Of a stretch of DNA of 36,611 bases, positions 72-4,269 are shown in pieces (positions within the stretch are counted from its first letter, which is position 1; each line of letters begins with the position of its first letter). The stretch comes from Actinomycetota bacterium (lineage in GTDB: Bacteria > Actinomycetota > Actinomycetes > Streptosporangiales > Streptosporangiaceae). The stretch lies in NCBI GenBank assembly GCA_003168215.1, contig PMSW01000104.1, positions 7,893 to 44,503 of the forward strand, in the 5' to 3' direction. Made by a program: the position numbers and the translations under genes. The notes beneath the pieces were generated by a model. It searched no databases, was not told the origin of the DNA, and saw nothing but the letters and a program-made list of their open reading frames with translations.

Positions 72-1343
72 TCAGCGCAGGCGGTAAAGGTCCTCGCCGG
101 CGTCGGGCACGACGAGCGTCTCCGGGTCGGCTGCCCACGCCGCCGGGTCGATCTCCGCCGGGTCGAGGTAGCCGAGATTGACCGCGCGGGTGACATCCTC
201 GGGGATACCGGTGGCCAGGGTGACCGTCACCCGGTCGCATTCGCCGCGGATCTCGTCGTAGGTTCCCGCGCCTCGCAGGTGCGTGGAGTGCGCGAGGTCG
301 CCCCAGTGCAGGTCCTTGAAGCGGTCCCACTGCTGGACGAAGTAATCCCGGCAGTGATAGCCGATCTGCGCGATCGCCGGGTGCGTGGCGGCGATCTCGC
401 GGATGTGCGGGGCGTACAGCACAACCTGGCCGCCGTCGGCCACGATGGGCTCCACCTTGTAGAAACCCTTGGCACCGGTCCACATGTCGCCGTATCTGGC
501 CGGGATCAGCGACAGGACCCGGCGCACCGGGGCGTCGAGGTAGCGGATGTGCGTCTCGGCGGATACGTCCGCCGCCGCCGCCCAGGCCGCTGACGGATCA
601 CCGAATGTCATGGCGTGCAGGTCCTGCGTGCGGGATTTCGTCACGACGCAGAGCGCGAGCCGTTCGCCGGGGACCATCGACGCGGCCTCGTCGATGAGCG
701 CGCGGACCGGGGTGATCCCGCGGGTACCGATGGTCTTCGCGCTCGTGATCAGCGCGCCCAGCCAGTGCGACACGTCGATGAGCTCCCCGGCCGAGACCCC
801 GGGGAAGAGGTACTTGTTGCCGCCGGAGAAGCCCGCGACCTCGTGCGGGAACACCGGCCCGGCGATGATCGTGACGTCGTGCTCGATCACGGCGCGGTTG
901 ATGCGCACGTGCACGGTGTGGCGCAGCATGCCGCCGGACAGCTCGGCGATCCGGCCGGCGCCGATGGCTCCGACATTCGCGAAGGTCGAGCGATCCCACC
1001 AGGCGTGGTTGAGCACGGTCGTCGATGGATAGCGGCCGGCCACGGCACCGGCGGCGTAGCCCAGGTGCGCGGCGAGCGCCTGCTCGCTCATCGCGGCGTG
1101 GGTGCCGAGTGCGACGAGTACCGTCAGGCGGCTGACGCGGCCGTGCAGGACGCCGTGGATCGCCGATACCAGCAGCGGCAGCGGGCAGCTGCGGGTGCCA
1201 TCGGGCACGAGCACGCAAACGCTGCGCCCGTCCAGGTGCGCGGCCCGGAGCTGGTCGTGCACGAACGCCCGGATCTCATCCTCAGTCAGGACGCCGTGCG
1301 GCCCGCCGGCCTGCGCTACTCCGGTGGCCGCCGTTTCGGCCAT
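72..1343 (-). CDS. LarA-superfamily (nickel-dependent lactate racemase-like, DUF2088) hydroxyacid racemase/epimerase
   Basis: 423 aa ORF with PDGTR..., LGTHAAMSEQ, PHEVAGFSGGNKYLFPG and SHWLGALI motifs (LarA His/Lys active-site context). Confidence 0.85.
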   Translation of the reverse strand: MAETAATGVAQAGGPHGVLTEDEIRAFVHDQLRAAHLDGRSVCVLVPDGTRSCPLPLLVSAIHGVLHGRVSRLTVLVALGTHAAMSEQALAAHLGYAAGAVAGRYPSTTVLNHAWWDRSTFANVGAIGAGRIAELSGGMLRHTVHVRINRAVIEHDVTIIAGPVFPHEVAGFSGGNKYLFPGVSAGELIDVSHWLGALITSAKTIGTRGITPVRALIDEAASMVPGERLALCVVTKSRTQDLHAMTFGDPSAAWAAAADVSAETHIRYLDAPVRRVLSLIPARYGDMWTGAKGFYKVEPIVADGGQVVLYAPHIREIAATHPAIAQIGYHCRDYFVQQWDRFKDLHWGDLAHSTHLRGAGTYDEIRGECDRVTVTLATGIPEDVTRAVNLGYLDPAEIDPAAWAADPETLVVPDAGEDLYRLR

Positions 1344-1401
1344 GTCACCCCACGTCCGCTGGCCGGCGTTCCCGGCCGCGAGGGCTGCCCGGGCCAGCTA
1401 A

Positions 1402-1415
1402 AAAGGCTCACCTTT
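1402..1415. promoter_or_regulatory. Candidate operator, inverted repeat AAAGG-CTCA-CCTTT in the larA-like/uxaC divergent intergenic region
   Basis: Perfect 5-4-5 inverted repeat 11 bp before the uxaC ATG. Confidence 0.4.
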
Positions 1416-1426
1416 ACTATCGCAGT

Positions 1427-2848
1427 ATGGATGCGCCCCGGTCGGCGCCGATGGCGCACCCGGATCAGCTGCTGCCCGCGGCGCCCGGCGAGCGCGCGAT
1501 CGCGCGGAGGCTGTACGCGGCGGTGCGCGACCTGCCGGTGATCTCCCCGCACGGCCACGTCGACCCGCGGCTGCTGCTCGACGACGAGCCGTTCCCGGAT
1601 CCGGCGGCGCTGCTCGTGACGCCCGACCACTACGTGACCCGGCTGCTGCACGCCGACGGGGTCGGGCTCGACGCCCTCGGCGTCGGGCAGGGCCCGCTCT
1701 CCGAAGGCGCGTCGCGGGCCGCCTGGCGGCTGCTGTGCGAACGCTGGCACCTGTACCGGGGCACGCCGGTGCGCTTCTGGCTGGAGGCAGCGCTGGCCGG
1801 CATCTTCGGCGTCACCACGCGGCCGTCGAAGGAGACGGCCGACGCGCTCTACGACCAGGTGGCCGAGTGCCTCGGGCAGGATGCCTACCGCCCGCGGGCG
1901 CTGTTCGGCCGGTTCCGCATCACGGTCCTCGCCACCACTGACGACCCCTGCTCCGACCTCGCGGCGCACGCCGCGCTAAACGCCGACCCGGCCTGGCCGG
2001 GTCGCGTGATCCCGACGTTCCGCCCGGACCGCTATCTGGAGCCGGCGCAGCCAGGGTGGCCTGCCGCGGTCGCCCGGCTGGGCGAGGCGGCGAAGGCCGA
2101 CACGGGCGATTACGCGGGTTACGTGCGCGCGCTGGAGGAGCGGCGGCGGCATTTCATCGCCCACGGCGCGACCTCGGCCGACCACAGCCACGCCGACGTG
2201 CGGACCGACCCGCTCGAGCCCGCCGCGGCGGCGCGCATCTACCGCGCGGCGCTGGCCGGTGCGGCCACGGGCGAGGAGGCAGCGGCGTTCCGACGGCACA
2301 TGCTGCTGGAGATGGCCCGGATGTCCTGCGATGACGGGCTGGTGATGACGCTGCATCCCGGCGTGCGCCGCGGCCATCACCGGCCCACCTGCGAGCGGTT
2401 CGGGCCGGACACCGGCCATGACATCCCGATCCGCGTCGAGTTTACCGACGCGCTGCGCCCGCTGCTGGAGCGCTTCGGCACGCATCCGGGCTTCCACCTG
2501 GTCGCCTTCACCGCCGACGAGACCGTGTGGTCGCGCGAGCTCGCGCCGCTGGCCGGGTTCTATCCCTGCGTGTACGTCGGCGTGCCGTGGTGGTTCCTCG
2601 ACGCCCCCGACGCCATCCGGCGCTTCCGTGCCGCGGTGACCGAGACAGCCGGTTTCTCGCGTACGTCCGGCTTCGTCGACGACACCCGGGCGTTCTGCTC
2701 GATACCCGCCCGGCATGACATGTCGCGCCGTATCGACGCGGGCGTCCTCGCGCGGCTGGTGGCCGAGCACCGGCTCGACGAGGACGAGGCCGTCGAGACC
2801 GCGGTCGACCTCGTCACCGGCCGCCCGGCCGCGGCGTTCAAGCTGTGA
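1427..2848 (+). CDS. uxaC: Glucuronate (uronate) isomerase
   Basis: 473 aa; PVISPHGHVDPRLLLDDEPFPDPAALLVTPDHYVTRLLHADGV, typical UxaC N-terminus. Confidence 0.93.
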   Translation: MDAPRSAPMAHPDQLLPAAPGERAIARRLYAAVRDLPVISPHGHVDPRLLLDDEPFPDPAALLVTPDHYVTRLLHADGVGLDALGVGQGPLSEGASRAAWRLLCERWHLYRGTPVRFWLEAALAGIFGVTTRPSKETADALYDQVAECLGQDAYRPRALFGRFRITVLATTDDPCSDLAAHAALNADPAWPGRVIPTFRPDRYLEPAQPGWPAAVARLGEAAKADTGDYAGYVRALEERRRHFIAHGATSADHSHADVRTDPLEPAAAARIYRAALAGAATGEEAAAFRRHMLLEMARMSCDDGLVMTLHPGVRRGHHRPTCERFGPDTGHDIPIRVEFTDALRPLLERFGTHPGFHLVAFTADETVWSRELAPLAGFYPCVYVGVPWWFLDAPDAIRRFRAAVTETAGFSRTSGFVDDTRAFCSIPARHDMSRRIDAGVLARLVAEHRLDEDEAVETAVDLVTGRPAAAFKL

Positions 2849-4269
2849 GCTCCCCGCGGCTGTCGCGAACCGCCGGGCAGGGCCGCGCCACCGCGCCAGT
2901 GCGCCTGGTCCACCTGGGGCTCGGCAACTTCTTCCGCGCCCACCAGTGCTGGTACACCGAGCACGCCCCGGACGCCGCGGACTGGGGGATCGCGGCCTTC
3001 ACCGGGACCAGCAGCCCTCCCCTTGTCGATGAGCTGAACGAGCAGGAAGGGCTCTACACGCTGGTGTCACGGGCCGGCGACGAAGACCGGTTCGAGGTGC
3101 TGAGCAGCTTGTCCCGGGCCCACGCCGTAGCCGACCACGATGCGTGGCTGCGCTACTTCGAGGCCCCGGAGCTGGCCGCGGTCACGATCACGGTGACCGA
3201 GGCCGGGTATCTCCGCGGCGCCGGCGGCGGTCTGGACGTCGGCCGCCCCGACGTCCAGGCCGACATCGAGGCGCTGCGCAGCGACCCCACCGGGCTCGTG
3301 CGGACCGCTCCCGGGCGCCTGGTCGCCGGGATCGCGGCCCGGCGGCGGGCCGGCGCGGGCGCGCTCGCACTCGTCCCCTGCGACAACGCGCCCGGTAACG
3401 GCGCGCTGGCGGAGCAGGTCGTCCGCGACCTGGCCGGGCTCGTCCATGCCGATCTGGCCGCGTGGTTCAGGGACTCGGTGACCGTCGTGACCACGATGGT
3501 CGACCGGATCACGCCCCGACCGACGCCGCAGGACGCCCGCACCGTGCTCGAGCGCACGGGGTTCGACGACCGCTGTCCCGTCGTCAGCGAGCCGTTTCAC
3601 GAGTGGGTGCTCAGCGGCGCGTTCCCGGCCGGGCGGCCGCGCTGGGAGGACGCCGGCGCGACGTTCACCGACGACGTGACGCCGTACGAGCACCGCAAAC
3701 TATGGCTGCTCAACGGCGCGCACTCGCTGCTGGCCTATGCCGGGTCCATCCGGGGCCACGCGACCGTGGCCGGGGCGGTGGCTGACGAGACGTGCCGGTC
3801 CTGGCTGGAGGAATGGTGGGCAGTGGCGTCGCCGCACCTGGACCAGCCCGCCGCCGGTGCCGCCGCAGGTGCCGCCGGGGGCGCCGCCGCGGACGTGGCC
3901 GCGTACCGCGCCGCGCTGCTGGCGCGCTTCGCCAACGCGCGGATGCACGACCGGCTGGACCGGATCGCCGCCGACGGCTCGCAGAAGCTCCCGATCCGCA
4001 TCTTGCCGGTCCTGCGCGCCGAGCGCGCGGCGGGCCTGGTGCCCGCCGGCGCGACGCGCGTGCTGGCCGCCTGGGTCTGTCACCTGCGCGGCCTCGGCGC
4101 GCCCATCCGCGACACGCGGGCCGCCGAGGTGGTCCCGCTGGCTGCGGGTCCGCTCGGCGCGGCCGTGCCGCGTGTCCTCGGCGCGCTGGACCCGGCGCTC
4201 GGCGCCGATGCCGATGTGGCGGCCATGGTCGTCGATCAGAGTGAGCAGTTCGTCCAGCAGGGGCGGTGA
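2845..4269 (+). CDS. uxuB: Mannitol dehydrogenase family protein, probable D-fructuronate/mannonate oxidoreductase (UxuB-like)
   Basis: 474 aa; VRLVHLGLGNFFRAHQCWYTE, polyol dehydrogenase Rossmann N-terminus; GTGA start/stop overlap with uxaC. Confidence 0.85.
   Translation: MSSPRLSRTAGQGRATAPVRLVHLGLGNFFRAHQCWYTEHAPDAADWGIAAFTGTSSPPLVDELNEQEGLYTLVSRAGDEDRFEVLSSLSRAHAVADHDAWLRYFEAPELAAVTITVTEAGYLRGAGGGLDVGRPDVQADIEALRSDPTGLVRTAPGRLVAGIAARRRAGAGALALVPCDNAPGNGALAEQVVRDLAGLVHADLAAWFRDSVTVVTTMVDRITPRPTPQDARTVLERTGFDDRCPVVSEPFHEWVLSGAFPAGRPRWEDAGATFTDDVTPYEHRKLWLLNGAHSLLAYAGSIRGHATVAGAVADETCRSWLEEWWAVASPHLDQPAAGAAAGAAGGAAADVAAYRAALLARFANARMHDRLDRIAADGSQKLPIRILPVLRAERAAGLVPAGATRVLAAWVCHLRGLGAPIRDTRAAEVVPLAAGPLGAAVPRVLGALDPALGADADVAAMVVDQSEQFVQQGR

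Follow-up and report, generated by a model that had tools for sequence, protein, structure and literature searches.

The first of the closest known relatives of the system considered here is that of Thermotoga maritima, for which a bypass from mannonate to gluconate was proposed by Rodionova et al. in 2012 (cited in PMC6978723 and PMC7583248). In this organism gnd-uxaE-uxaD-gntE-gntK lie within one regulon and kdgA-kdgK-uxuB-uxuA are kept (PMC3750489). Epimerase activity of its GntE2 protein (LarA homologue group 20, LarAH20; PDB 4NAR) was shown in 2020, when the epimerisation of D-mannonate to D-gluconate was measured (PMC7583248). We report here on a 36,611-bp stretch of DNA (the window; G000:C74:7893-44503) that starts 7.9 kb into a 48-kb contig of a 4.65-Mb draft genome, 74.6% complete, of an actinomycetotal soil bacterium (Streptosporangiaceae, GCA_003168215.1), and in which a gntE-like larA homologue lies beside uxaC and a uxuB-like gene. 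Judging from comparative genomics, these genes very probably encode a dehydratase-free glucuronate route that would run through GntE and gluconate into the pentose phosphate pathway.

The window LarA homologue has the superfamily, fold and active site of GntE2 at just ∼31–33% identity, and the link proposed for T. maritima is the same (mannonate to gluconate to 6-phosphogluconate, with gnd and a gluconokinase as partners). However, the T. maritima operon (gnd-uxaR-uxaE-uxaD-gntE-gntK, regulated by UxaR) serves galacturonate via UxaE and UxaD in an organism that retains uxuA-kdgK-kdgA, whereas here UxaC and a mannitol dehydrogenase-type UxuB are present and no mannonate dehydratase was found. 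The canonical Ashwell pathway (UxaC-UxuB-UxuA-KdgK-Eda) shares its first two steps with the proposed route, but neither UxuA/ManD nor Eda was detected here. GntE1 of Corynebacterium glutamicum, which is likened to the window protein by description and not by sequence, is an actinobacterial GntE that is found in the context of uronate genes and has demonstrated mannonate/gluconate activity. Among the control genomes, that of C. glutamicum matched UxaC, LarC and 6-phosphogluconate dehydrogenase (6PGD) but not UxuA, Eda or a high-scoring ManD, the same pattern as in the window genome. The mannonate kinase/6-phosphomannonate 2-epimerase route of Lactobacillus suebicus likewise leads from the upper isomerase pathway to 6-phosphogluconate with no mannonate dehydratase involved, but there, unlike in the route proposed here, phosphorylation precedes epimerisation.

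The initial annotation of the window knew of no description of the three-gene pathway as a unit; the bypass as such has precedents in the 2012 proposal for Thermotoga (gntE-gntK-gnd) and the 2020 work on GntE. Searches of the open-licence literature, which leaves most subscription journals outside its scope, turned up neither the gntE/uxaC-uxuB unit nor the mutual exclusion with dehydratases. New are this layout and the near-exclusive replacement of dehydratases in Actinomycetota; earlier work on the idea has centred on Thermotoga.

Results

As initially annotated, a larA-type gene diverges from a coupled uxaC-uxuB pair across an 83-bp gap; all three open reading frames and the spacing were verified, and the uxaC and uxuB frames share 4 bp (GTGA). 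The features are as follows.

72 to 1343, minus strand: gntE-like LarA homologue (423 aa), predicted D-mannonate/D-gluconate 2-epimerase dependent on nickel-pincer nucleotide (NPN); Lar_N domain, best match 4NAR
1344 to 1426, no strand: divergent promoter region (83 bp), without the LacI-type operator GGCAAYCGATTGCC that is present here in many relatives
1427 to 2848, plus strand: uxaC, glucuronate/uronate isomerase (473 aa); Pfam UxaC, NCBIfam PRK02925, PDB 2q01
2845 to 4269, plus strand: uxuB-like reductase of the mannitol dehydrogenase family, predicted fructuronate reductase (474 aa); Mannitol_dh domains

The LarA homologue exceeded the Pfam cut-off for Lar_N (PF09861; 73 bits vs 23.3, E 1.9e-20), and its closest PDB match was 4NAR (E 1e-56), with all other LarA structures at 1e-8 or weaker. 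Its AlphaFold model (mean confidence score, pLDDT, 88) likewise had 4NAR as its top fold match in Foldseek (template modelling score 0.85), and every match at E<0.001 was a LarA-type structure. The NPN-binding residues (R51, K177 and H193) and catalytic residues (D48, H82, H167 and K292) are kept as in GntE2 and are invariant in 17 homologues. E168 of the substrate loop and W288 are also common to GntE2, the second loop residue being V and not S; an 'EV/S' loop with a W in alpha-11 characterizes LarAH groups 18–20, the hexonate epimerase groups (PMC7583248). The gntE homologues have the hexonate-type loop 'HEV' and W288, whereas lactate racemases have 'HFF' at this place. In a tree, the gntE group was split from 11 LarA-type proteins (100/100), the exact position of the long-branched GntE2 being uncertain.

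Two other identities were considered for the window gene and rejected. Lactate racemase proper did not fit, as the protein reached 70 of the 460 bits required for LarA, and a true LarA is encoded separately in this genome (541 bits, over the lactate racemase cut-off, with loop FF). UxaE-type epimerases belong to another Pfam family (PF16257), members of which occur beside gntE in two distant loci described below but not in the window.

UxaC was identified by Pfam (E 1e-65), by the NCBIfam equivalog PRK02925 (532 bits vs a cut-off of 387) and by the PDB uronate isomerase 2q01 (E 2e-133). UxuB has the N and C domains of Mannitol_dh in Pfam, a family-level match only. Because its scores lie under all NCBIfam cut-offs, its substrate was assigned from context, and the coupling to uxaC and the conservation of the pair point to a fructuronate reductase.

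The cofactor genes that the initial annotation had named as a check, larB, larC and larE, are all present in the window genome, in a larA2-larE-larB-larC cluster on contig 134 (L004 367-4333; LarE 297, LarB 257 and LarC 365 bits). Both NPN enzymes, the gntE-like LarA and the true LarA, probably draw on this single cofactor set. The gntK gene is present as well, as a GntK/IdnK-type gluconokinase on contig 126 that exceeds its cut-off (166 vs 113.75 bits), and a protein with a 6PGD domain is encoded on contig 5. The absence of uxuA and eda, initially seen in the window, extended to the whole draft genome, in which UxuA, ManD and Eda (PF01081) were not detected.

Scanning genome contigs for gntE homologues yielded 16 loci, which with the window make 17 genomes. 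UxuA was found in none of the 17, Eda in 4, 6PGD in all and LarC in 15. ManD exceeded its cut-off in two (G005, Cellulomonas, and G009, Paractinoplanes), and the gntE loci of both lack uxaC. We also surveyed 395 genomes of the class for UxaC (54 genomes), UxuA over cut-off (20), ManD over cut-off (61) and GntE-type proteins (18), the last being called across a clear score gap (469–727 bits vs 150 and below). One protein on the low side of this gap (L039, G377:C1:60996-62057) is a divergent LarA-like protein that scored 150 bits with the GntE profile. A search for the usual PHxx-GxSGG motif found none in it, and it is possibly another LarA subtype.

Within this survey, uxaC occurred in 15 of 18 gntE-type genomes as compared to 54 of 395 overall (p 1e-11). 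Among the 54 UxaC genomes, GntE occurred without a mannonate dehydratase in 14 and a dehydratase (UxuA or ManD) without GntE in 36, while 1 had both and 3 neither (Fisher p = 3e-9, a value inflated by relatedness; permutation restricted to the families of mixed content, f1, f17 and f25, gave 1/2 x 1/28 x 1/3, or ∼0.006). The co-occurrence of larA-like genes with uxaC and without uxuA, which the initial annotation had suggested surveying, is thus found class-wide, gntE-like genes with uxaC being nearly exclusive of UxuA and ManD. Family f1 provides a direct contrast: the window genome has GntE, and G115 has uxaC followed by ManD beside a LacI gene, epimerase and dehydratase being exchanged at comparable loci. 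We rejected an assembly gap as a general explanation of the missing UxuA because the absence recurs across many genomes.

The three UxaC genomes with no detected UxuA, ManD or GntE were G196, G213 and G279. G196 belongs to the same family and has uxaC and gnd on one contig (L053, G196:C4; 8561-9970 and 12330-13751). All three are candidates for another mannonate outlet, e.g., the phospho-route of L. suebicus.

The arrangement is not due to chance, since many genera have this divergent gntE/uxaC-uxuB block (GntE identity 56–87%). The block occurs in L005, L006, L008, L011, L012, L014 and L015; in L010 and L017 further genes lie between gntE and uxaC, and in L007, on a short contig, only uxuB and gntE were seen. 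A translated search located a gluconokinase-like FGGY gene directly 3' of uxuB in seven loci (L006, L010, L012, L014 and L015, and L058 and L061 of the class genomes). The gnd gene adjoins gntE in L011, L017, L019 and L020 (NAD-type in L066), and larB, larC and larE lie near gntE in L005, L006, L008, L009, L012, L014, L015, L017 and others. Many gntE clusters also contain a beta-glucuronidase gene (892 vs 544 bits for the L005 copy).

In two distant phyla, gntE is joined not to UxaC-UxuB but to UxaE and a D-mannonate oxidoreductase of the short-chain dehydrogenase/reductase (SDR) type (L018 2364-6324, Chloroflexota; L020 3481-10386, Gemmatimonadota), clusters similar in layout to that of T. 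maritima (PMC3750489). The pairing of gntE with either of two unrelated reductases that form mannonate points to mannonate as the metabolite they have in common. The L020 cluster also holds gnd, Eda, a gene resembling 2-keto-3-deoxygluconate (KDG) kinase and a TRAP transporter. In L068 (G180), L069 (G106) and L070 (G184), gntE adjoins uxuB without uxaC, and no UxaC was found in these genomes; L070 has gntE together with a GntK-type gene and larBCE. The layout of these three loci would correspond to entry of mannonate or fructuronate without a uronate isomerase.

The gntE/uxaC intergenic region contains the exact palindrome GGCAAYCGATTGCC in L008, L011, L055, L056, L057 and L059 and a copy with one mismatch in L054. 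The palindrome also separates the LacI gene from gnd in L011 and from the beta-glucuronidase gene in L054 and L064; in L055 and L059 it precedes beta-glucuronidase. The sites have the following positions.

L008: 7891
L011: 2232, 4612 and 4756
L054: 6238 and 8966
L055: 8492 and 11068
L056: 9193
L057: 8357
L059: 9104 and 10748
L064: 10734

This looks like one candidate new LacI-type glucuronate regulon uniting gntE, uxaC-uxuB, gnd and beta-glucuronidase.

Flanking the three genes in the window, the next gene to the right of uxuB is cobS, which is unrelated (Pfam, NCBIfam). To the left of the larA-like gene, no uronate gene was recognised by eye in the list of open reading frames, on which no family search was run.

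Discussion

In the proposed route, UxaC would convert D-glucuronate to D-fructuronate, which UxuB would reduce to D-mannonate. GntE, loaded with the NPN made by LarB, LarE and LarC from elsewhere in the genome, would then invert C2 of D-mannonate through hydride abstraction and return, and the resulting D-gluconate would be passed by gluconokinase and 6-phosphogluconate dehydrogenase into the pentose phosphate pathway. GntE may in this way stand in for mannonate dehydratase (UxuA or ManD) and for the branch of KDG kinase and 2-keto-3-deoxy-6-phosphogluconate aldolase. The LarA homologue most likely turns mannonate into gluconate, and the bypass of UxuA that the initial annotation had suggested is well supported at the level of comparative genomics: all the checks named there that could be run favour it (the cofactor genes, gntK, the lack of detectable UxuA, ManD and Eda, and the class-wide exclusion). 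It is from direct observations, namely the gene identities, the conserved active site and clusters, the cofactor and downstream genes and the mutual exclusion with dehydratases, that we infer the substrate, the direction of flux and the status of sole route in the cell.

Several observations weigh against this route. The gluconokinase and gnd genes of the window genome are not adjacent to gntE/uxaC-uxuB, and at 74.6% completeness the absences in this genome alone are weak. Neither the window nor its closest relatives (L005–L007) have the operator or a neighbouring LacI gene, a search of the window for GGCAAYCGATTGCC having given nothing above chance. The best NCBIfam model for the LarA homologue, that of LarAH group 18 (NF052594, putative hexonate epimerase), shares the E-V/S loop with it, but at 151 vs 500 bits the protein is not a member.

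Other observations bear on the substrate. UxuB is below every NCBIfam cut-off and scores slightly higher as D-arabinitol dehydrogenase (247 bits) than as fructuronate reductase (PRK15037; 229 vs 603 bits), and C. glutamicum GntE1 (LarAH group 19), a homologue in a uronate context for which epimerisation was shown, has a Km of 120 mM for mannonate, which its authors doubt is the native substrate, leaving the latter open (PMC7583248). Both would fit a LarA homologue whose substrate is a different hexonate or a uronic or aldaric acid, as has been suggested for GntE1 (e.g., glucarate, giving mannarate), and which lies beside uxaC-uxuB only as part of a parallel uronate route. We consider this improbable, as the product of UxuB would then have no outlet in the 14 genomes lacking both dehydratases, and as it fails to explain either the gluconokinase and gnd in the same clusters or the pairing of gntE with UxaE and the non-homologous SDR oxidoreductase in L018 and L020. 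Epimerisation might instead take place at the phosphorylated level, the FGGY kinase being a mannonate kinase and the LarA homologue a 6-phosphomannonate 2-epimerase. In L. suebicus the latter activity has been proven without a gene being assigned to it (PMC6978723), and the FGGY kinase next to uxuB scores ∼375 bits, below the equivalog cut-off of 648 for gluconokinase, which also counts against a gluconate route. Because the LarA-family GntEs tested so far work on free D-mannonate (PMC7583248, PMC11770544), the gluconokinase of the window genome exceeds its cut-off, and the active-site loop resembles that of GntE2, a phosphorylated substrate is very improbable. It is scarcely credible that an ordinary Ashwell pathway operates with a dehydratase that was missed in the draft or went unrecognised, GntE merely salvaging gluconate or mannonate. 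The window genome is incomplete, enolase-superfamily proteins of unknown specificity do match ManD at low scores, and GntE and ManD coexist in four surveyed genomes (G005, G009, G184 and G228), itself a point against replacement; however, isolate genomes (Blastococcus, Streptacidiphilus) and near-complete genomes of the class lack the dehydratases too, and most also lack Eda.

The survey shows the nickel epimerase in place of the dehydratase in about one in four of the related bacteria that carry uxaC. In a substantial fraction of UxaC-bearing Actinomycetota, it is probably the sole mannonate outlet, so that a dedicated gene set, co-regulated and dependent on nickel, would burn glucuronate (e.g., from beta-glucuronides) wholly via gluconate and the pentose phosphate pathway. 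If true, the sole-outlet reading bears on the native substrate of actinobacterial GntE enzymes and provides a concrete prediction, with culturable test organisms (Blastococcus, Streptacidiphilus) and a sharper annotation of LarA homologues in many genomes. The Ashwell pathway may have a modular exit, in which its dehydratase/Entner-Doudoroff half is exchanged for a nickel epimerase leading to the pentose phosphate pathway. Such an exchange would alter the redox yield, giving NADPH and CO2 instead of pyruvate and glyceraldehyde 3-phosphate, and would add a nickel requirement to glucuronate use.

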